A stretch of 33,274 nt of DNA from Lachnospiraceae bacterium. GTDB lineage: Bacteria > Bacillota > Clostridia > Lachnospirales > Lachnospiraceae. The first letter of the stretch is position 1, and the number at the start of each line of letters is the position of its first letter. Below the pieces are notes generated by a model. That model ran no database searches. It was not told the DNA's origin and was given only the letters and a program-made list of their open reading frames with translations. Below are positions 9,941 through 21,567 of the stretch, piece by piece. The position numbers and the translations under genes were made by a program. The DNA lies in contig CAJTBO010000040.1 of the NCBI GenBank assembly GCA_910573755.1, positions 1 through 33,274 on the forward strand, in the 5' to 3' direction.

Positions 9941-10119
9941 ATATGCGCAGACCCGCAAATAGAAGATAGCAGCTGACGCAGCATGCGGGCCGCGCGGTGA
10001 GCAGGGGAAGATGAACTTCCCTGCTCAATTGTACAGACCCGCAAATAGAAGATAGCAGCTGACGCAGCATGCGGGCCGCGCGGTGAGCAGGGGAAGGTGA
10101 GCCTTCCCTGCCCGTTCGC
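9941..10119. repeat. Pair of 86-bp-spaced hairpin repeats between convergent genes
   Basis: A stretch of at least 60 bp starting CAGACCCGCAAATAGAAG occurs at 9948 and again at 10034 (period 86). Each copy can fold: CCCGCA pairs with TGCGGG within the unit, flanked by GCGC words, and a second hairpin GAGCAGGG-GAAG/CTTCCCTGCTC follows. In copy 2 this second hairpin is GCAGGGGAAGG/CCTTCCCTGC, so it is kept although its loop differs. The unit starts right after the terminator with ATATGCGCA, a word also found after the gap terminator at 14620. It is probably a dispersed intergenic repeat element. The hairpins lack T-runs. Confidence 0.7.
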
Positions 10120-11464: not shown

Positions 11465-12283
11465 ATGTCGATCAAATCAGATTATCATCTGCATTCCCAT
11501 CATTCCGGGGACAGCGATGCGCCTATGGAGGAGATGGTGAAAAACGGCATTGCCGCAGGACTTGAGGCAATGTGTTTTACGGAGCATGTGGATTTTGACT
11601 TCAGGCCCCTCGGAAAAGAGAAGAGCGATATGTTCGAATTGAATGCGGATTCTTATTTATATGAACTGCTGAGCCTGAAAAAGAAATACGAGGATCAGAT
11701 CGAACTGCTCTTCGGGCTTGAATGCGGGATGCAGCCCCATACCGCCCGGGAGAATGTGCGTTTTATCAAAGAGCACGAATATGATTTTGTGATCGCTTCC
11801 GTCCATCTCTGCGGGGGGAAAGATCCCTATTACCCGGAATATTTTGAGGGAAAAGAGGAGGAAGAGGCGCTTCGGGAGTATCTGGAGGAGACTTTCCGCA
11901 ATATAAAGGTATTCGGTAATTTTGACTGCCTCGGTCATCTGGATTACATCATACGCTACTGTAAGAAGATGGACAGACAGTATGAATATGTAAAATACAA
12001 GGATATTATTGACAGGATACTGTCCTATCTGATCGACAGGGAGAAAGCGCTGGAGTTGAATACGGCCGGCATCAGAAAGGGCATGCAGGAGATGAATCCC
12101 TGCAGGGAGGTCATCCGGCGTTATCATGAGATGGGCGGCGAGCTGATCACCATAGGCTCCGACGCTCACAGGCCCGGGGAAGTGGCTTCCGGTTTTGACA
12201 AGGCGGAAGAGCTGCTGCGGGACTGCGGTTTTCAGTATTATACAGTATACAATGGCAGGATCGCTATGATGAAAAAATTATAA
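11465..12283 (+). CDS. PHP-domain phosphoesterase, histidinol-phosphatase (HisJ/HisK) family
   Basis: The 272-residue protein is a cytoplasmic metal-dependent phosphatase of the PHP superfamily. Members of this subfamily typically remove phosphate from L-histidinol phosphate in histidine synthesis. The N-terminus carries the metal-binding DYHLHSHHSGDS; then follow FTEHVDFDF, GLECGMQP, ASVHLCGG, GHLDYIIRYC, and near the end TIGSDAHRPGEV, in the order expected for the trinuclear metal site. The length is normal for the family. GGAGG at 11455-11459 is 5 nt before ATG 11465. There are no other his genes nearby, so another phosphomonoester substrate is possible. The gene has its own promoter and may be co-transcribed with the C39-like gene. 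Confidence 0.88.
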   Translation: MSIKSDYHLHSHHSGDSDAPMEEMVKNGIAAGLEAMCFTEHVDFDFRPLGKEKSDMFELNADSYLYELLSLKKKYEDQIELLFGLECGMQPHTARENVRFIKEHEYDFVIASVHLCGGKDPYYPEYFEGKEEEEALREYLEETFRNIKVFGNFDCLGHLDYIIRYCKKMDRQYEYVKYKDIIDRILSYLIDREKALELNTAGIRKGMQEMNPCREVIRRYHEMGGELITIGSDAHRPGEVASGFDKAEELLRDCGFQYYTVYNGRIAMMKKL

Positions 12284-12293
12284 ATACCAAAAT

Positions 12294-12509
12294 TTACGGA
12301 ACTGGAAACAGTAAGCCCGCTGACAGCGCCCAGAGTATTTACGGACGCAGGGCGGCCGGAAATATCTCTGCCGGGAAAGGGGCTGTGAGAGGGCTTACGG
12401 AACTGGAAACAGTAAGCCCGCTGACAGCGCCCAGAGTATTTACGGACGCATAGCGGCCGGAAATATCTCTGCCGGGAAAGGGGCTGTGAGAGGGCTTACG
12501 GAACTGGAA
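12294..12509 (+). repeat. Tandem 101-bp structured leader element, two copies plus partial third
   Basis: The unit occurs at 12294-12394 and 12395-12495 with only two differences, and its first 14 bp recur at 12496-12509. Each copy folds into a long hairpin (12311-12398 and 12412-12499): GTAAGCCC pairs with GGGCTTAC, ACAGC with GCTGT, and CAGAGTATTT with AAATATCTCTG (one bulge), around an apical ACGGACGCA...GCGG. ACAG precedes each stem and GGAACTGGAA follows it; after the last copy comes AGGAG (12511-12515) and the start codon 12523. The same architecture with different stems lies upstream of pgk and tpiA. Confidence 0.8.
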
Positions 12510-12522
12510 TAGGAGAATAAAC

Positions 12523-13305
12523 ATGGGTTTAGAGGATTTAACGGCGCTTGGCGCGAAAGCAGGAAGTCTTTTGAAGGAAATGACGGCAGGAAAGGCGGAA
12601 AACGCTGCAAATGAGCGGGCGGAGGCGTTTAAAAAGATCTGTGCCCTGATCCCCAATAAAGTGGATAATGCAACGGTGGTGAGCGTGCTGGATCTGATGC
12701 GCAAACAGCAGAAGGCGGTGAAGAAGGATTTTTCGAGCCATACGGCAAGGAACGAGGAGGCATTTAAAAAACATGCTCCTGTCATCACAAAGAATAAAGG
12801 CTTTGTGGAGGATCAGAACAGCTATACGGATATGGCTTACGGGGATGCTACGATGCAGTATTCCGGCTGTGAAATTTTTGCGACTTATAATGCGATATAC
12901 AGTATCACGGGGAAGACCGTGATGAGTCTGGCAAAGATGATCTCCGAATATGAGAAGGATGGTATGGTGCTTTCGGGTAAATTCGGCACGGCGCCGAAGG
13001 CCATCAAGGATTTTCTGGATAAACATGGTTTTAAAACGGAAATGACCACTAATGAGGCGGACTTTGACAATTTCGGGAAAAAGTTCCAGAGCCTGATCCT
13101 TACCATGTACAATGATAAGGATGACATCAGCAAGGAAGTGCATACCGTCAATATTTCCAAAGAAGGCGGGAAGTATCTTGCACACAATGTATACTGCAAC
13201 GGCAAGGTGGTGGGACCTGAGGCTTCCGTAAAGGATTTGATCGGGAAGATGAATGGCGGAAAGGCGAAGGGGATTTCCCTGATCGGCGTCTCTAAAGCGG
13301 TTTAG
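12523..13305 (+). CDS. Putative C39/papain-like cysteine peptidase
   Basis: The 260-residue protein has a helical N-terminal part (1-95) rich in K, E and A, then a region that looks like a papain-fold peptidase. The possible nucleophile is C116 in MQYSGCEIFATYNAIYSITG, followed by KTVMSLAKMI, which resembles the N-terminal helix of C39-like domains. A likely histidine is H207 in EVHTVNISKEGGKYLAHNVYCNGK. There is no signal peptide or transmembrane segment, so it acts in the cytoplasm or leaves by an unusual route. AGGAG at 12511-12515 is 7 nt before ATG 12523. The tandem structured leader sits immediately upstream. The fold call is my inference from motif spacing; the substrate is unknown. 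Confidence 0.5.
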   Translation: MGLEDLTALGAKAGSLLKEMTAGKAENAANERAEAFKKICALIPNKVDNATVVSVLDLMRKQQKAVKKDFSSHTARNEEAFKKHAPVITKNKGFVEDQNSYTDMAYGDATMQYSGCEIFATYNAIYSITGKTVMSLAKMISEYEKDGMVLSGKFGTAPKAIKDFLDKHGFKTEMTTNEADFDNFGKKFQSLILTMYNDKDDISKEVHTVNISKEGGKYLAHNVYCNGKVVGPEASVKDLIGKMNGGKAKGISLIGVSKAV

Positions 13306-13402
13306 GGATCTGATATGAGCGCCCGTGCGGCATACGTGGGATTCGGGGAACCGGGATAAACTAAAATTTTCCTAAATTTACGAAAAATATGGTAATTACA
13401 TC

Positions 13403-13431
13403 TTGAATTTTAAAAGCAGATTGGGTAGAAT
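13403..13431 (+). promoter_or_regulatory. Promoter of gap
   Basis: TTGAAT (13403-13408), a 17-bp spacer and TAGAAT (13426-13431) precede gap by about 95 bp. The leader includes a short GACAG/CTGTC hairpin near 13478-13488 and an AT-rich tract before the strong AGGAGG (13511-13516). A second -35-like TTGACA at 13450-13455 has no matching -10 box. Confidence 0.65.
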
Positions 13432-13524
13432 ACTAATGGTGACAAAATTTTGACAGATACACTCCGGAATATGAGGGGACAGACTGTCAGAAAAAATATA
13501 AATTTTTTTAGGAGGGACTAAAAA

Positions 13525-14553
13525 ATGGCAGTAAAAGTAGCAATTAATGGTTTTGGCCGTATCGGTCGTCTTGCATTCAGACAGATGTTTGGTGCGGAAG
13601 GTTATGAGGTTGTAGCGATCAACGATCTGACAACACCTTCTATGCTGGCACACCTGTTAAAGTATGATTCTTCTCAGGGCAGATATGTTGCTGTCGGTGA
13701 AGAAGATCAGGTAACAGCTGATGACGAAGCAGGCACGATCACAGTAAAAGGCCAGACGATCAAAATTTACAAAGAGCCCGACGCAAATAACTGTCCTTGG
13801 GGCGAACTTGGTGTAGACGTAGTTCTGGAGTGCTCCGGTTTCTATACCTCCAAAGCAAAAGCTCAGGCACACATCAATGCCGGCGCTAAGAAAGTTGTTA
13901 TTTCTGCTCCTGCAGGAAACGACCTTCCTACCATCGTTTACAATGTAAACCATGACACACTGACAAAAGAAGATACTATCATTTCCGCAGCATCCTGTAC
14001 AACAAACTGCCTGGCTCCCATGGCAAAGGCTCTTAATGACCTTGCTCCCGTTGAGTCCGGTATTATGTGCACGATCCATGCTTATACAGGCGACCAGATG
14101 ATCCTTGACGGACCTCAGAGAAAAGGCGATAAGAGAAGAAGCCGTGCAGGCGCTATCAACATCGTTCCCAACTCCACAGGTGCAGCAAAGGCTATCGGCC
14201 TTGTTATTCCTGAACTGTCCGGCAAGCTGATCGGTGCGGCACAGCGTGTTCCGACCCCGACAGGTTCTTCCACGCTTCTGTTCGCAGTTGTTAACAAGAC
14301 TGTAACAAAAGACGAAGTAAACGCAGCTATGAAGGCAGCAGCAAACGAGTCCTTCGGTTATAACACAGACGAGATCGTTTCCTCTGACGTTGTAGGTATG
14401 AGATTCGGTTCCCTGTTCGATGCTACTCAGACAATGGTTAGCCCTCTGCCGGATGGCAAGACACAGGTAGAAGTTGTTTCCTGGTATGACAATGAGAATT
14501 CCTATACAAGCCAGATGGTTCGTACGATCAAGTACTTCGCTGAGTTAGGTTAA
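13525..14553 (+). CDS. gap: Glyceraldehyde-3-phosphate dehydrogenase, type I
   Basis: This enzyme converts glyceraldehyde-3-phosphate, NAD and phosphate to 1,3-bisphosphoglycerate in cytoplasmic glycolysis. The 342-residue protein shows the Rossmann motif [14 protein letters not shown] at the start and [10 protein letters not shown], where the aspartate fits NAD preference. The catalytic C158 is in [17 protein letters not shown]. Other family stretches are [32 protein letters not shown] and [15 protein letters not shown]. Length is normal. AGGAGG (13511-13516) is 8 nt before the ATG. The gene uses a codon set typical of highly expressed genes (AAA, GAA, GTT, GCA more than its neighbours). It has its own promoter and a strong terminator, so it is probably a single-gene unit at the head of the glycolytic block. 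Confidence 0.98.
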
Positions 14554-14589
14554 TTCAGAAAACAGTCAGAAATGATGTAAGTGACTATG

Positions 14590-14619
14590 AGGTCCGGTCC
14601 ATAGAGGACCGGACCTTTT
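14590..14619 (+). terminator. Rho-independent terminator of gap
   Basis: GGTCCGGTCC (14591-14600) pairs perfectly with GGACCGGACC (14606-14615) around a 5-nt loop, followed by TTTTA. It separates gap from pgk. Confidence 0.9.
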
Positions 14620-14690
14620 ATATGCGCACAGGTGCGGAGAGGAAGGATACAGTATAAGCTGCCCGCACCCGGTGCGATATGAATCCGCGG
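14616..14690 (+). repeat. Hairpin element after the gap terminator
   Basis: ATATGCGCAC (14620-14629) pairs with GTGCGATAT (14672-14680), and inside it TGCGG (14633-14637) pairs with CCGCA (14663-14667), leaving an apical AGAGGAAGGATACAG region. The opening word TTTTATATGCGCA is identical to the one at 9937-9949, where another hairpin repeat also begins right after a terminator. It looks like a member of a dispersed repeat family, distinct from the tandem leader that follows. Confidence 0.5.
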
Positions 14691-14918
14691 ATGCGGAACT
14701 GGAATAAAACAGCATCAGTCCGGACAGTGCCCAGAGAATTTACGGACGCAAAAGCGGGCGGAAATTTTTCTGAGTCAATCGGTACTGGGAGGACAGATGC
14801 GGAACTGGAATAAAACAGCATCAGTCCGGACAGTGCCCAGAGAATTTACGGACGCAAAAGCGGGCGGAAATTTTTCTGAGTCAATCGGTACTGGGAGGAC
14901 AGATGCGGAACTGGAATA
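14691..14918 (+). repeat. Tandem 106-bp structured leader element upstream of pgk
   Basis: Two apparently identical copies (14691-14796 and 14797-14902) are followed by the first 16 bp of a third. Each forms a long hairpin (14712-14800 and 14818-14906): GCATC-A-GTCC pairs with GGAC-A-GATGC, CAGTGCC with GGTACTG (one G-U), and CAGAGAATTT with AAATTTTTCTG (imperfect). The apical sequence is ACGGACGCAAAAGCGGGCGG. ACAG precedes the stem and GGAACTGGAA follows. The last copy leads into AGGAGG (14918-14923) and ATG 14932. The stems differ wholly from the copies at 12294 while core and flanks are conserved. Confidence 0.85.
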
Positions 14919-14931
14919 GGAGGATGGTAAA

Positions 14932-16155
14932 ATGGGATTAAATAAGAAATCCGTAGATGATATTAATGTAAAGGGAAAACGCGTGCTGGTAAGGTGCGAC
15001 TTTAATGTGCCTTTGAAAGACGGCGCTATCACAGATGAGACCCGTATCGTAGCAGCGCTTCCCACGATCAACAAACTGATCGCTGACGGCGGCAAGGTGA
15101 TCCTTTGCTCCCACCTCGGCAAAGTAAAGAACGGCCCCAACGAAGGAGAATCTCTTGCACCTGTGGCAAAGAGGCTTTCCGAGAAACTGGGCAAGGAGGT
15201 AAACTTTGTTTCCGATTACAATGTAACTGGCGAAGCTGCAACAAAGGCAGTGGAGGCAATGAAGGAGGGAGACGTAGTTCTTCTGCAGAATACACGTTTC
15301 CGCGGAAAAGAAGAGACAAAGAACGGCGAAGAGTTCAGCAAGGAACTGGCTGAACTGGCTGATCTGTATGTATGTGACGCATTCGGCTCTTCCCACAGAG
15401 CACATGCATCCGTGGAAGGCGTGACAAAGTTCATCAAGGAAAAAGGCGGAGAGAACGCGGTTGGTTATCTGATGCAGAAAGAGATCGACTTCCTCGGCAA
15501 TGCGGTAGAAAATCCGGTAAGGCCTTTCGTAGCGATCCTCGGCGGTGCAAAAGTTGCGGATAAACTGAACGTGATCAATAACCTGCTGGAGAAATGCGAT
15601 ACCCTGATTATCGGCGGCGGCATGGCTTATACATTCCTGAAAGCAAAAGGCTATGAGATCGGTACATCTCTGGTGGATGAAGAGAAGCTGGATTACTGTA
15701 AAGAGATGATGGCAAAAGCAGAAGAAAAGGGCAAACAGCTCCTGCTCCCTGTAGACACCACGATCGCTGCAGATTTCCCGAACCCTATCGACGCTGAGAT
15801 CGCAGTGGAGGTAGTTCCCTCCAACGCAATCCCTGCAGATAAGATGGGGCTGGATATCGGTACAGAGACAGCAAAACTCTATGCAGATGCTGTGAAATCC
15901 GCTAAGACAGTTGTATGGAACGGTCCTATGGGCGTATTTGAGAACCCGATCCTTGCAAAAGGTACGATTGCTGTAGCACAGTCTCTGGCTGATACGGATG
16001 CAACAACGATCATCGGTGGCGGTGACTCCGCAGCGGCAGTGAACCAGCTCGGCTTTGCGGATAAGATGAGCCATATCTCCACAGGCGGCGGCGCTTCTCT
16101 GGAGTTCTTAGAGGGCAAAGAGCTTCCCGGCGTGGCAGCAGCAGATGATAAATGA
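14932..16155 (+). CDS. pgk: Phosphoglycerate kinase
   Basis: The enzyme transfers the acyl phosphate of 1,3-bisphosphoglycerate to ADP, the first ATP-yielding step of glycolysis. The 407-residue protein has the N-domain substrate motif [12 protein letters not shown], then [12 protein letters not shown] and [10 protein letters not shown], followed by [15 protein letters not shown] and [16 protein letters not shown]. The C-domain nucleotide motifs are [25 protein letters not shown] and [11 protein letters not shown], with a final [19 protein letters not shown]. Length is slightly above the usual 390-400. AGGAGG (14918-14923) is 8 nt before ATG 14932. The tandem structured leader occupies the region upstream, with no clear promoter between it and the gap terminator. 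A tandem 69-bp repeat follows the stop codon at once. Confidence 0.98.
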
Positions 16156-16157
16156 CC

Positions 16158-16364
16158 GAGCGAAGCGAGGGATACGAGCACAGTGCCAGCGAAGCAGGTA
16201 CGGGCGAAGCGGTTGCGAGTCGATGAGAGCGAAGCGAGGGATACGAGCACAGTGCCAGCGAAGCAGGCACGGGCAAAGCGGTTGCGAGTCGATGAGAGCG
16301 AAGCGAGGGATACGAGCACAGTGCCAGCGAAGCAGGCACGGGCGAAGCGGTTGCAAGTCGATAG
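16158..16364. repeat. Three tandem copies of a 69-bp repeat after pgk
   Basis: Copies at 16158-16226, 16227-16295 and 16296-16364 are nearly identical. The unit is rich in GCGAAGCGAG and GCGAAGCGGTT words and contains AGTGCCAGCGAAGCAGGCAC. The period is a multiple of three, so frames stay open across the array on both strands, but the translations are low-complexity and overlap no known family. There is no spacer diversity, so this is not CRISPR. The array begins 2 bp after the pgk stop and ends 16 bp before the next gene. Confidence 0.9.
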
Positions 16365-16380
16365 TTGATGGAGGAAACTT

Positions 16381-16998
16381 ATGAGTAAAGGAAAAAAAAT
16401 CGGCGGTATTATTTTAGTGATCTTCGGCACGATCTTTCTGGTGATCGGCCTTGCGGTCGGCGGGCTGTTCGGTGCAATGAACGGCGCGATGGATGAAGCG
16501 ATCTCGGAACTTCAGGAGGAGATCGATGATTTCCGTGAAAACGGCGTGACAACTCTTGGAGAGATCACGGATATAGACAGCGACAGTATGGCGACAATAG
16601 AGTATTATTGTGACGAAGACGGTTACTGGTATGAAACTTATATTATGGTATTGGATGAAGGGTATCAGGTCGGCAGCGCGGTTGAAGTGTGCTATGACAG
16701 CAGCGATCCTACCAATGTCATGGTGCCTCAGTTATATATGGAAGCCATGGGCGTGGTCGGCGATACGGTACCGGGTGTCGGCATCGGCGTAGGCGCTGTG
16801 TTTGGCGTAATCGGCGCAGTCCTGCTGATCATCGGCATCGTACTTCTGGTGAGCAATAAGAAAGATAAACAGTGGACTGACCAGATCAATTCCCGCAATG
16901 CGTCAATGGGCGTGGGCGGAGCGCAGTATAACGGTTATCAGCAGCAGGGCGGCTATAACTCGAATTCATACCAGCAGAATAACAACCAGAATATGTAA
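16381..16998 (+). CDS. DUF3592-like two-span membrane protein
   Basis: The 205-residue protein has an N-terminal hydrophobic span (about 7-33), an extracytoplasmic-type domain of about 80 residues, and a second glycine-rich hydrophobic span (about 125-160) leading to a cytoplasmic tail. The middle domain carries the pattern [41 protein letters not shown], as in DUF3592 proteins, where a Y-x-G-x-x-V-x-V-x-Y-x-x-x-x-P motif recurs. The tail ends in a Q, N, Y and G-rich stretch, which may be disordered. GGAGG lies just before ATG 16381. It sits between pgk and tpiA and may be co-transcribed with them. The function is unknown. Confidence 0.65.
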
Positions 16999-17013
16999 AG
17001 AATATAAAAACAG

Positions 17014-17098
17014 TATGAGTACGGCGGTGCGCAGGATGATCTTCGGATGCAAAGCGGCAGGAAAGCTGTCTTTGTTACATTGCGCACCCGGACTCATA
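17014..17098 (+). promoter_or_regulatory. Diverged single copy of the structured leader element upstream of tpiA
   Basis: TATGAGT (17014-17020) pairs with ACTCATA (17092-17098), CGG with CCG, and GTGCGCA (17027-17033) with TGCGCAC (17081-17087). The apical part TTCGGATGCAAAGCGGCAGGAAAG resembles the core of the elements before pgk and the C39-like gene. ACAG precedes the stem, and GGAACTGAAAAGGAG follows with ATG 17123. The stem sequences are unlike those of the other copies but still pair. Confidence 0.65.
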
Positions 17099-17122
17099 TG
17101 GAACTGAAAAGGAGAAGAAGAA

Positions 17123-17869
17123 ATGGCAAGAAGAAAAATCGTAGCCGGAAACTGGAAGATGAATATGACACCTTCTCAGGCGGTAGCACTTTGTGAGGAA
17201 TTGAAGGATCTGGTAAAATCCGACAGCGTAGACGTGGTTTACTGCGTACCTGCGGTTGATATCGTACCGGTAGTGGAAGCCGTTAAGGGCACAAACGTAG
17301 AAGTCGGCGCCGAGAATATGTATTTTGAGGAGAAGGGCGCTTACACAGGCGAAATCTCCGCGGCTATGCTGGTGGACGCAGGCGTAAAATATGTGATCAT
17401 CGGCCACTCCGAGAGACGTGACTACTTCAAAGAGGATGACGCTCTGTTAAATAAGAAGGTGAAAAAGGCTTTTGAAGCCGGCCTGACACCGATCCTTTGC
17501 TGCGGCGAATCCTTAGAGCAGAGAGAAATGGGCGTTACCATGGACTGGATCCGTTTCCAGATCAAGTCCGATCTTGTTGGCATTACAGCAGATCAGGTAA
17601 AAGAGATGGTGATCGCTTACGAGCCGATCTGGGCGATCGGCACAGGCAAGACAGCAACAACAGAGCAGGCTGAAGAAGTTTGTAAGGGAATCCGTGACTG
17701 CATCGCTGAAATGTATGACGCAGCTACGGCGGAAGCGGTTCGTATACAGTACGGCGGCTCCGTAAACGCTGCAAACGCCGCAGAACTGTTCGGACAGCCG
17801 GATATCGACGGCGGTCTTGTGGGCGGCGCTTCCCTGAAAGCTGATTTTGGAAAGATCGTCAATTATTAA
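17123..17869 (+). CDS. tpiA: Triosephosphate isomerase
   Basis: The enzyme interconverts dihydroxyacetone phosphate and glyceraldehyde-3-phosphate in the cytoplasm. The 248-residue TIM barrel has all catalytic parts: K12 in GNWKMN, H95 in [12 protein letters not shown]167 in [15 protein letters not shown] (the last including the mobile loop 6), and the phosphate-binding [10 protein letters not shown] and [11 protein letters not shown]. Length is normal. GGAG (17111-17114) is 8 nt before ATG 17123, directly after the structured leader element. It is followed by a strong terminator, so it likely closes the pgk transcription unit. Confidence 0.98.
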
Positions 17870-19215: not shown

Positions 19216-19317
19216 AAAGAAGAGAACCGGCAGAGCAGATACAGGTTCCGTATATAGTGTATTTTGTTGAACTGGTGTATAATTGGTTTAAAACAGGGCA
19301 GGAAGGAGGCAGTGATT

Positions 19318-21567
19318 TTGAATAATATAAATGATCTGGAATACCGCCTTTGGCTGTTGCAGGGGGAAGTAAATCAGGCGATGCAGAATGCCGGCAGGGC
19401 TGATTTTACCTATCTCAACAGATTGAATCATATGGAATCCGAAATTCGTTACCTGCAGCAGCAGATCACGGAGTTAAAAAAAGCCGGGCAGGGAGTGGTG
19501 CGGCCTTTGAATCAGCCGTTGCCATCCGTTCAGCCGTTGCCATTCGTTCAGCCGTTGCCATCCGGTCGGCCGCAGTCATTCGTTCAGCCGTTGCCATCCG
19601 GTCGGCCGCAGTCATTCGTTCAGCCGTTGCCATCCGTTCAGCCGCAGCTATCCGGTAATCCTCTGCCATCCAGTCAACCACAATCCGCCGGTCAACCATT
19701 ACCTTTCGGTCAGTCACAGCCCTTTGCGCAGCCATTACCATCCGGTCAGCCCTTTTCCTCCGGAAATCCCGGGAAAAAGGATCTGGAAAAAACATGGGGA
19801 ACCGGTGTGATGGGGATCGTGGCGTCTGTGTTGATCTTTATCAGTATCATTATTTTCGGGGGGCTTTTGCTTCCATACCTGACAAATATTATCATGACAG
19901 CCGTCATGTTTTTGTTAAGCTTTGTTTTATTTGGCGCAGGGTACTGGCTGCTGCGGAAGAATCCGAAAAATAAGTTTCATATATCGCTGTGTGCCTGCGG
20001 CGTGACAGCCATTTGTGTGTCGCTTTTTGTGACAAGGCTATATTTCGCATTGATAAATGACGCTGCATTTCTTTTGCTGATCGCCGTATGGCTGGCGCTG
20101 ACAGCCTGCGTGTGCAGGAAATATCAGCATTATATATTCCGGATCATCGGAGAGATCGGTATCTTTCTTACCCTGTGCCTCGGAAGTGCCAGGCTGACTA
20201 TGGCAGAGATGACAGAGAGCGGCTGGTTTATGTTCTGCGCTCTCCTGTTTGTATTCGGATGCAGTTCGTTCATCTTTCATATCGTTATTCCGAAGACAGG
20301 CTATGAGAAAAATGCGTTTTCACATATTGTCAGAACGCTGGTATTGATACTTCTCCTTGCGGTTTTTGCAAACGGGCCGAAAGGAGGCATCGGCATTTAT
20401 GCGGGATTTGCCTTTGTGAGCGCCCTTTTGTTGATGGAAATCCGGATAAGTTACAGGGATGTATTGAATGACGGCTGTTTATTTTATTGTCTGATGAGTA
20501 TGGACGCTCTGGTGTATTGCGCGATACTTTGCGGCACCTTTCAACTGAAAAGCTTTCTGCCGTATTATGCCGCATCAATACTGCTGGCGGGATTTTTTGA
20601 GGTAAAACAAAGCAAAAACAGTATCTTCGGCAATATTCTTGCGAGCCTTATCTTTTTGTGGAGCGGATGGGCATGGCTTCATAGGGGCGTTTTTTATGCG
20701 ATGCTGGTGATGCTTCCGCTGTTTGCCTGCGGTTTTGTAAAGAAAAAGGCGGCGCCTTTGTATATCGGGCTGTTCTGTATTGCGGGGATTTTTGGTGCGG
20801 AAAGCACGGTTTTGGGTATACTGCTTTTATGGGCGGTACCGTTTTTATGTTTCGCGGTTCTGGCAAGGATCATGAAGGATCAGATATTTGCGTCAATCGG
20901 GTATCCGTTGTTCATGGTCTGCGGGGCGATCATGTTTTTCAGATTGCTGGATAAATATGACACACCTGTCAGAGAGGGGATGATCCTGACATTTCTGGTG
21001 TTTGCCGTGCTGCATATGCTCCTTGTCAGGCTGAAGGCTTTGGCGCAGGAGGGAACCGGATTTGAGATAACTGCCGCTGCGATGACCGTATTTTTCATGA
21101 TATGCAGTTCTTTTGCGGTTTATCAGGAATATTTAAACATCCTTACGATGGTTGTGATGGCGGCGATGTTTACGATGAATACGGTGCATCTGCTGAAGAA
21201 ATCGGAGAATTTCGGTTATTATATCGGATTGAAATATACAATATTAATGATATTGCTGGTGGATGCGCATTTTCGGATTTCCATGCTGATCAGCGTGCTG
21301 ATGCTGCTTTTTGCGGCGGGCAGTATTGCGTTTGGTTTTTATAAAAAGTATAGATCCTTCAGAATTTACGGCCTGATCCTTTCCATGGTAAGCGTATGTA
21401 AGCTGATATTGTTTGATGTCTCGGGCAGAAGCGCACTTGATAAGGCGGTGGGATTTCTTGTCTGCGGCCTGATCTGTTTCGGAATCAGTTTTCTGTATAA
21501 CAGAATAGAAAACAGGGTAAAGAAAAGGGAAAAGGAAGATATTGAAAGATCCGGTAAAATTGTATAA
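19318..21567 (+). CDS. DUF2339-like large multi-span membrane protein with proline-rich linker
   Basis: The 749-residue protein has an N-terminal coiled-coil-like helix (about 1-50; YRLWLLQGEVNQAM, ESEIRYLQQQITELKK). Next is a repetitive P, Q, L and S-rich linker (about 65-150; QPLPSVQPLPFVQPLPSGRP type), and then some 20 hydrophobic segments to the end. This layout matches DUF2339 proteins. TTG 19318 is the likely start: AAGGAGG (19303-19309) lies 8 nt upstream, while GTG 19312 would be only 2 nt away. The final stretch NRVKKREKEDIERSGKIV is cytoplasmic. The function of the family is unknown; a cell-envelope role is a guess. The next gene follows after 80 bp. Confidence 0.65.
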   Translation: MNNINDLEYRLWLLQGEVNQAMQNAGRADFTYLNRLNHMESEIRYLQQQITELKKAGQGVVRPLNQPLPSVQPLPFVQPLPSGRPQSFVQPLPSGRPQSFVQPLPSVQPQLSGNPLPSSQPQSAGQPLPFGQSQPFAQPLPSGQPFSSGNPGKKDLEKTWGTGVMGIVASVLIFISIIIFGGLLLPYLTNIIMTAVMFLLSFVLFGAGYWLLRKNPKNKFHISLCACGVTAICVSLFVTRLYFALINDAAFLLLIAVWLALTACVCRKYQHYIFRIIGEIGIFLTLCLGSARLTMAEMTESGWFMFCALLFVFGCSSFIFHIVIPKTGYEKNAFSHIVRTLVLILLLAVFANGPKGGIGIYAGFAFVSALLLMEIRISYRDVLNDGCLFYCLMSMDALVYCAILCGTFQLKSFLPYYAASILLAGFFEVKQSKNSIFGNILASLIFLWSGWAWLHRGVFYAMLVMLPLFACGFVKKKAAPLYIGLFCIAGIFGAESTVLGILLLWAVPFLCFAVLARIMKDQIFASIGYPLFMVCGAIMFFRLLDKYDTPVREGMILTFLVFAVLHMLLVRLKALAQEGTGFEITAAAMTVFFMICSSFAVYQEYLNILTMVVMAAMFTMNTVHLLKKSENFGYYIGLKYTILMILLVDAHFRISMLISVLMLLFAAGSIAFGFYKKYRSFRIYGLILSMVSVCKLILFDVSGRSALDKAVGFLVCGLICFGISFLYNRIENRVKKREKEDIERSGKIV
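19512..19760 (+). repeat. In-frame tandem repeats encoding the proline-rich linker
   Basis: Inside the DUF2339-like gene, short units such as CAGCCGTTGCCATCCG and GGTCGGCCGCAGTCATTC recur many times with small changes. They encode QPLPS, QPLPF and GRPQS blocks. Such tracts readily change length by slippage or recombination, so linker length probably varies among strains. Confidence 0.85.

Follow-up and report, generated by a model that had tools for sequence, protein, structure and literature searches.

We analysed positions 1-33274 (forward strand) of contig CAJTBO010000040.1 from Lachnospiraceae bacterium GCA_910573755.1, a stretch of 33,274 nucleotides (nt) referred to below as the window, in which an element made of a long hairpin followed by GGAACTGGAA precedes the Shine-Dalgarno sequences of three genes, pgk and tpiA among them. 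The genome that holds the window is labelled G000, its eight genus mates are G001-G008, and G021 is a carrier from another genus. Copies of the element were scored with R1, a covariance model built from 14 aligned G000 copies, the window loci included, from which the Shine-Dalgarno was left out; these copies were chosen by eye from the 109 rows of a stem search, which were mostly chance. The features of the three loci, with the evidence for each, are as follows.

12298..12307, + strand: GGAACTGGAA remnant that an earlier unit left ahead of the first array (sequence)
12308..12408, + strand: element copy 1 upstream of the gene at 12523 (R1, 93.3 bits)
12409..12509, + strand: element copy 2 upstream of the gene at 12523 (R1, 94.6 bits)
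12510..12515, + strand: Shine-Dalgarno TAGGAG, directly adjoining the element, with the start codon at 12523 (sequence)
12523..13305, + strand: downstream gene of 260 amino acids, called 'C39-like' in the first-pass annotation (open reading frame; no family assigned from Pfam or NCBIfam at the chosen thresholds)
14695..14704, + strand: GGAACTGGAA remnant ahead of the pgk array (sequence)
14709..14810, + strand: element copy 1 upstream of pgk (R1, 93.6 bits)
14815..14916, + strand: element copy 2 upstream of pgk (R1, 93.6 bits)
14917..14923, + strand: Shine-Dalgarno TAGGAGG of pgk (the element-free G003 site also has AGGAGGATGGTAAA-ATG)
14932..16155, + strand: pgk (sole NCBIfam match the Pgk part of NF010569, under the cut-off of that fused model)
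17010..17109, + strand: single divergent element copy upstream of tpiA (R1, 65.8 bits)
17110..17114, + strand: Shine-Dalgarno AGGAG, with the start codon at 17123 (sequence)
17123..17869, + strand: tpiA (TIGR00419, over cut-off)

The first-pass annotation had placed five copies before three genes; its coordinates were right and the stems that it quoted are present in the sequence. However, the first two pairs are arrays of period 101 and 106 (Tandem Repeats Finder) whose members are almost the same in sequence, which reduces the five copies to three independent loci. The tandem copies, which the first-pass annotation had likened to cooperative riboswitches, are duplications and lend that idea no support. 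The label 'C39-like' found no Pfam or NCBIfam match (E up to 1e-5 and up to 1e-20, respectively), and pgk is 88-99% identical in the eight other genus members. No R1 match was found before gap or gpmI in the window. Between gap and pgk, at 14590-14620, lies a terminator-like hairpin, GGTCCGGTCC...GGACCGGACCTTTT, which is also found in all seven genus mates whose sequence extends there; the pgk array is therefore placed after a likely transcript end.

A search of Rfam 15 gave no match in the window, the region 12200-17200 yielding just two snoRNA matches far under the cut-offs (E 2.1 and 4.3), and none in seven loci from other arrays and genomes. This agrees with the proposal of the first-pass annotation that the RNA is undescribed, and a description of the element family was likewise found neither in Rfam 15 nor in the open-access papers searched.

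Fold and position of the element

The 14 aligned G000 copies have a common architecture of about 100 nt, which consists of ACAG, the stem P1 (8-11 pairs), P2, a one-sided bulge of 8-9 nt, P3 and then GGAACTGGAA. P1 varies freely in sequence yet stays paired, and P3 has single opposed bases and a CGC/GCG-like apex; of 183 full copies, 153 have A.G as the inner P3 mismatch and 74 as the outer. Changes on both sides were found at 23 of the 29 pairs, and 92.6% of the cells were paired, compared to 74.3% in shuffles and 35-49% in slid versions. The copies from outside the window came from 60 stretches of G000; those of C1, C2, C4, C5 and C6 are contiguous parts, whereas the ten taken from C3 were chosen at GGAACTGRAA pattern matches. 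At E ≤0.01, R1 gave 104 matches in the G000 stretches examined (103 after removal of an L040/L141 overlap counted twice; 101 distinct rows), and both-sided changes rose to 28 of the 29 pairs in this alignment, which is itself fitted to the model. When eight copies were folded singly, they had z values of -2.8 to -8.2 against dinucleotide shuffles, the tpiA copy being the weakest, with a minimum-energy fold of its own that lacks the P3 apex. Short forms of about 26-55 nt also exist, in which ACAG-P1-GGAACTG is kept and P2 and P3 are lost.

The exact pattern GGAACTGRAA occurs 377 times, against 20 for the reversed pattern. As a marker of the element on its own it was rejected in favour of the covariance model, since most of those listed among 94 sites were without a hairpin and looked coding-like by eye. 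An intrinsic terminator was likewise rejected as the nature of the hairpin, because GGAACTGGAA instead of a T run follows it and terminator-like sites show no excess over shuffles (5 in 12200-17200 compared to 4.3).

At least 94 R1 matches were found in G000, where 150 of 1892 candidates were scored; all genome match counts given here are lower bounds in this way (up to 98 candidates scored per relative and up to 13 per genome of the wider family). The G000 stretches contain 67 distinct arrays, of which 25 have more than one copy, and we compared these with 59 arrays from G021 and 49 from mixed genus relatives, the three sets being cited in this order. A strict test, which asks for a Shine-Dalgarno word and then a start open for 60 codons, was passed in the sense direction at the 3′ end of 57/67, 53/59 and 43/49 arrays. 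Applied outward from the 5′ end on the antisense strand, it was passed by 0 of 175 arrays, and random positions passed the test in 1120 of 40000 cases (2.8%); the antisense count was 0 of 200 when the array's own 5′ end was used and 25 arrays of three more genera were added. In the passing arrays, the Shine-Dalgarno word starts one base past GGAACTGGAA in 46/57, 35/53 and 32/43 cases. In the three further genera, where the linker is often longer, 14 of the 25 arrays passed and the word abuts in four of those; by eye, a purine run and a start codon follow in 24 of 25, the remaining array lying at a contig end. The distance from the P1 base to the start codon is mostly 22-26 nt (medians 23.5, 23.5 and 23 nt for 64/67, 58/59 and 46/49 arrays), and in 53 of the 67 G000 arrays a same-strand open reading frame ends within 200 nt upstream, according to mechanical calls. 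In summary, the element holds a fixed sense position relative to the gene start, and both the covarying stems and the position at translation starts that the first-pass annotation had read from the window are confirmed on these larger sets.

The downstream genes were assigned by scanning 29 of the 65 G000 downstream proteins against NCBIfam and Pfam. Matches over the NCBIfam cut-off were TIM, a phosphoglycerate mutase, aspartate kinase, DnaG, AlaS, TypA, aspartate-semialdehyde dehydrogenase, CinA, Fmt, RecN, PheT, PlsY, CCA tRNA nucleotidyltransferase, purine-nucleoside phosphorylase and others, to which Pfam adds dehydroquinate synthase, enoyl-CoA hydratase, an ABC transporter, cytidine deaminase, a P-type ATPase, an Rnf/Nqr subunit, a GH43 enzyme and a sigma-70 type factor. 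No grouping in a single pathway was apparent among the 29 scanned proteins.

At two G000 loci, L036 (about 10330) and L156 (about 6120), a weak element match is separated from the Shine-Dalgarno by another hairpin, GTGC.GTCGCGCAGC.ACTT. The L036 copy is followed by a protein that shares 96% identity with one of G021, which suggests that this downstream pair of G021 and G000 may have arisen by horizontal transfer.

Dispersal, distribution and persistence at orthologous sites

Copies that are 90-96% identical were found at different loci, several times in G021 and once in G000. In five such pairs that we aligned, the likeness begins at about AACAG, in some pairs beyond an upstream GGAAC remnant, and ends on the 3′ side at GGAATA or GGAATAGGAGG, so that closely similar, sharp-ended copies stand at unrelated loci in the manner of miniature inverted-repeat transposable elements. 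The mean identity between copies is 0.75 in G021 (a set that holds one locus twice, L312 being L363) compared to 0.63 in G000, a greater likeness such as might be seen after a more recent spread. Adjacent tandem pairs are 0.90-1.00 identical in 28 of 30 cases in G000 and, since tandem neighbours are near-identical, the arrays grow by duplication. A GGAAC-like remnant, sought with a permissive pattern, lies within 45 nt upstream of 27/36 single full copies in G000, 31/38 in G021 and 23/33 in the relatives, which looks as if most single copies may once have stood behind another unit. No target-site duplication above permutation was detected in 26 single copies without a remnant. The Y1_Tnp domain has 13 matches in G000 and none in the carriers G021, G001 and G005.

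The element was found in 8 of 41 relatives (G000 counted), which are G000 itself, six of its eight genus mates and G021. The carrying genus mates have at least 11-72 matches (0-72 over the genus) and G021 has 104, while 31 other genera that were sampled gave none among the candidates scored. Family-wide, 8 of 299 genomes in 7 of 298 genera have a match, G246 through one weak match. A pattern of the 3′ junction was found in at least 117 stretches, and among the 80 titles listed for these were Lachnospiraceae, Acetatifactor, Lachnoclostridium, [Clostridium] symbiosum, unplaced Clostridia or bacteria and one Oscillospiraceae, and R1 matched in 13 of the 20 junction-pattern loci searched. Contigs titled as strains 1XD8-76 and D16-50 (L162 and L200) bear the element according to R1. 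One viral contig, L415, has a single exact 19-base match to the junction pattern and is one of the seven loci that gave no R1 match.

Within the genus, presence at the same gene is variable. At pgk, a full element precedes the gene in G000, G005 and G008, where a contig end truncates it; G007 and, by eye, G001 have a short form, and none is present in G006, G003, G002 and G004, i.e., in four of nine genus members including G000. At tpiA, only G000 has the full element and G006 has a short one; G007 and G003 have, by eye, another hairpin with the same feet, and no element precedes the gene in the other five of nine (G001, G005, G008, G002 and G004). At the element-free pgk site of G003, the AGGAGG and the spacer are the same as in G000.

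Orthologous sites were compared with G003, which is the nearest genus mate when judged from the gene at 11465, where identity reaches 94%. Its 38 matches gave 30 loci, of which 25 were queried, L392 and L409 (truncated), L395 (a tandem neighbour), L402 (offset) and L413 (an inner copy) being left out. An orthologous site in G000 was found for 17 of the 25; 12 have a full element in both genomes, two a short one in G000 and three no model match, a co-occurrence that is inflated by the enrichment of the compared G000 DNA for arrays. Two of the three sites without a model match bear a GGAAC remnant. The 12 element pairs are 0.61-0.90 identical and rank 1-3 among the 91 G000 copies in 8 of 12 cases, whereas in 11 of 12 the identity of the 48 nt upstream is just 0.40-0.57. 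Among the P1 cells of these pairs, 74 are the same, 11 are compensatory, 4 are one-sided with G-U and 7 are broken. The fold therefore persists at orthologous sites via compensatory changes, while the flanks look random.

Three further repeats were noted elsewhere in the window: three 69-nt direct repeats (97% matches) at 16158-16362, between pgk and the gene at 16381; a tandem repeat of period 86 at 9948-10111 (1.9 copies, 96% matches); and 18/36-nt repeats at 19512-19751 within the open reading frame 19264-21567, which give a proline-rich repeat region.

Proposed mode of action and origin of the family

The element is a mobile-repeat-like RNA leader with an unusual placement and belongs to a real family, which is neither glycolytic nor a shown riboswitch. 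The fold, the sense-strand character, the placement, the tandem duplication, the similar copies at unrelated loci and the persistence of the fold at orthologous sites are all direct observations. With moderate confidence, we read them as a lineage-specific family of dispersed, mobile-like, structured RNA elements that act in cis on the next cistron. The 5′ edge of the initiating ribosome lies about where the P1 base stands, 22-26 nt before the start codon. Because the P1 base mostly falls at this distance, and most often after a same-strand open reading frame, the element would act within the mRNA, post-transcriptionally, on the downstream cistron. As the conserved core and linker suggest recognition, the most likely mode would be binding by a trans-acting factor or a ribonuclease, which may set the initiation rate or the stability gene by gene, with no metabolic regulon defined. 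The element would be copied around the genome and kept where it is harmless or useful. A simple folding insulator that frees the Shine-Dalgarno was rejected, since its predicted accessibility is the same with or without the element.

Several results weigh against the reading as a dispersed RNA element that acts on the next cistron. The accessibility predicted from the Shine-Dalgarno to the start was unchanged with the element present, removed or shuffled, both in G000 (n = 57; 0.589, 0.567 and 0.575; p 0.3 and 0.74) and in G021 (n = 52; 0.546, 0.539 and 0.538; p 0.64 and 0.48). Three of the 67 G000 arrays are without a convincing downstream gene, two having no open reading frame (L040:16600 and L146) and one an open reading frame of 86 amino acids (L056). 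Many orthologous sites have lost or shortened the element, which is thus dispensable there. G021 and G000 have just 2 of 58 downstream genes in common, as a selfish repeat would, and at both the G000 element match is weak (35.9 and 29.4 bits). Among the mixed genus relatives, the orthologous copy was the best match in 2 of 13 pairs (two of the 13 from G003), a result that fits either conservation of the fold and core alone or replacement of copies; the fold might equally be preserved through gene conversion among them. Lastly, the G-U excess comes from related sequences that were aligned with a model. Since a G-U pair read from the opposite strand is an A-C mismatch, the count of 254 GU against 64 AC/CA over 160 elements marks the sense strand as the one that pairs, but it is inflated by the G-U preference of R1, a conserved P2 wobble and the relatedness of copies. 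In the ungapped first eight P1 pairs, GU outnumbers AC by 28 to 7 over the three sets summed, and the excess is absent from the set of genus relatives (3 compared to 4). The G-U excess appears to favour RNA-level pairing of the sense strand.

Among the alternatives, the one that survives best is a purely selfish interspersed repeat aimed at AGGAGG-like motifs, in which the placement would result from target choice and purging, with no benefit to the host. We regard this as a possible explanation, although an unlikely one. It would account for the exact abutment on the Shine-Dalgarno, for the existence of the pgk Shine-Dalgarno without the element in G003, for the patchy distribution with gene sets that differ between genera, and for the more homogeneous G021 copies, the remnants and the short forms. 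However, it sits poorly with a fold and core that are kept at orthologous sites where flank similarity is lost, with the three further genera, in which abutment falls to 4 of 14 and a start still follows in 24 of 25 by eye, with the missing target-site duplication in 26 copies and with the complete lack of antisense starts at the array 5′ end (0/175 and 0/200). The first-pass annotation had itself named a mobile repeat as the alternative to its own view; the 90-96% alike copies at unrelated loci bear this out in part, but the matches lie sense and close to starts, where a scatter over either orientation had been expected of such a repeat.

It is very improbable that the element is a hairpin acting as DNA, like those of REP or IS200/IS605, with a Y1 (HUH) transposase as its mobiliser. 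Small hairpins with conserved feet and a high copy number resemble REP sequences, and Y1_Tnp has its 13 matches in G000, but the carriers G021, with its 104 element matches, G001 and G005 are without a Y1_Tnp match, and the asymmetry of G-U over A-C favours pairing as RNA. REP/BIME and REPIN are short palindromic intergenic repeats in many copies; unlike these, the present element has direct tandem copies and a three-part hairpin of about 100 nt, and G021 has no match to the Y1 transposase.

A target of CsrA or another known global RNA-binding protein, with the GGA triplets of the linker and the Shine-Dalgarno as sites, is likewise very improbable. Copies like those of the window do have GGA repeats spaced by six bases beside the Shine-Dalgarno, and CsrA is encoded in all 8 carrying genomes. 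It is also found in 22 of the 33 non-carriers, so that the distribution of the element is left unexplained, and while CsrA sites are known for a GGA in an apical loop, such a GGA is not common to the aligned copies.

The weakest candidate, a metabolite riboswitch or glycolysis-specific leader, is hardly probable: a conserved core with varied stems before pgk and tpiA speaks for it, but the elements also precede genes for tRNA synthetases, DNA repair, amino-acid metabolism, transporters and a sigma-70 type factor, gap and gpmI are without an R1 match in the window, the pgk and tpiA leaders are often element-free in the genus, and 12200-17200 has no terminator-like excess. The tie to the glycolytic block that the first-pass annotation had proposed is hence not upheld, with 67 arrays before unrelated genes and 2 of 58 genes shared with the other genus; a glycolytic regulon is largely refuted by the gene content and by presence and absence in nine genus members. 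Riboswitches and ribosomal-protein leaders also place covarying stems around a conserved core near the start of translation, but the present element differs from them in having no common pathway among the downstream genes identified, copies at new loci, 67 arrays in one genome and no Rfam family.

Close likenesses include the BOX, RUP and SPRITE repeats of Streptococcus pneumoniae, which are small interspersed repeats in many copies that are seen as mobile and can be transcribed with their neighbours, BOX being modular and internally repeated (PMC3049150). In experiments cited there, boxA and boxC raise and boxB can lower downstream expression; the paper finds the pneumococcal repeats over-represented between convergent genes, reads them as parasitic and doubts that they generally serve to regulate from upstream (PMC3049150). 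The element resembles them in being small, interspersed, mobile-looking and present in many copies. It is unlike them in standing sense at starts (57/67 by the strict test and none antisense) with a pairing that is kept by compensatory change. For ERIC and Correia elements, insertions in transcribed regions may alter transcript processing, in the case of ERIC depending on orientation (PMC3049150); a single-orientation placement beside the Shine-Dalgarno, as seen here, does not feature in that description of them.

A more far-reaching version of the reading as a dispersed RNA element acting in cis would be a mobile element that brings along a complete module for control by RNA and sets it, rightly oriented, directly before ribosome-binding sites, its insertion perhaps guided by the Shine-Dalgarno and perhaps proceeding through RNA. 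We put this forward as a speculative and rather doubtful proposal; if true, the lineage could rewire the translation or stability of many unrelated genes by module insertion. More generally, a spreading family that stands sense at starts, with its fold kept by compensation, would connect mobile repeats with the way in which regulatory RNA leaders arise, and the close species offer natural pairs of genes with and without the element, in which its effect could be measured directly.

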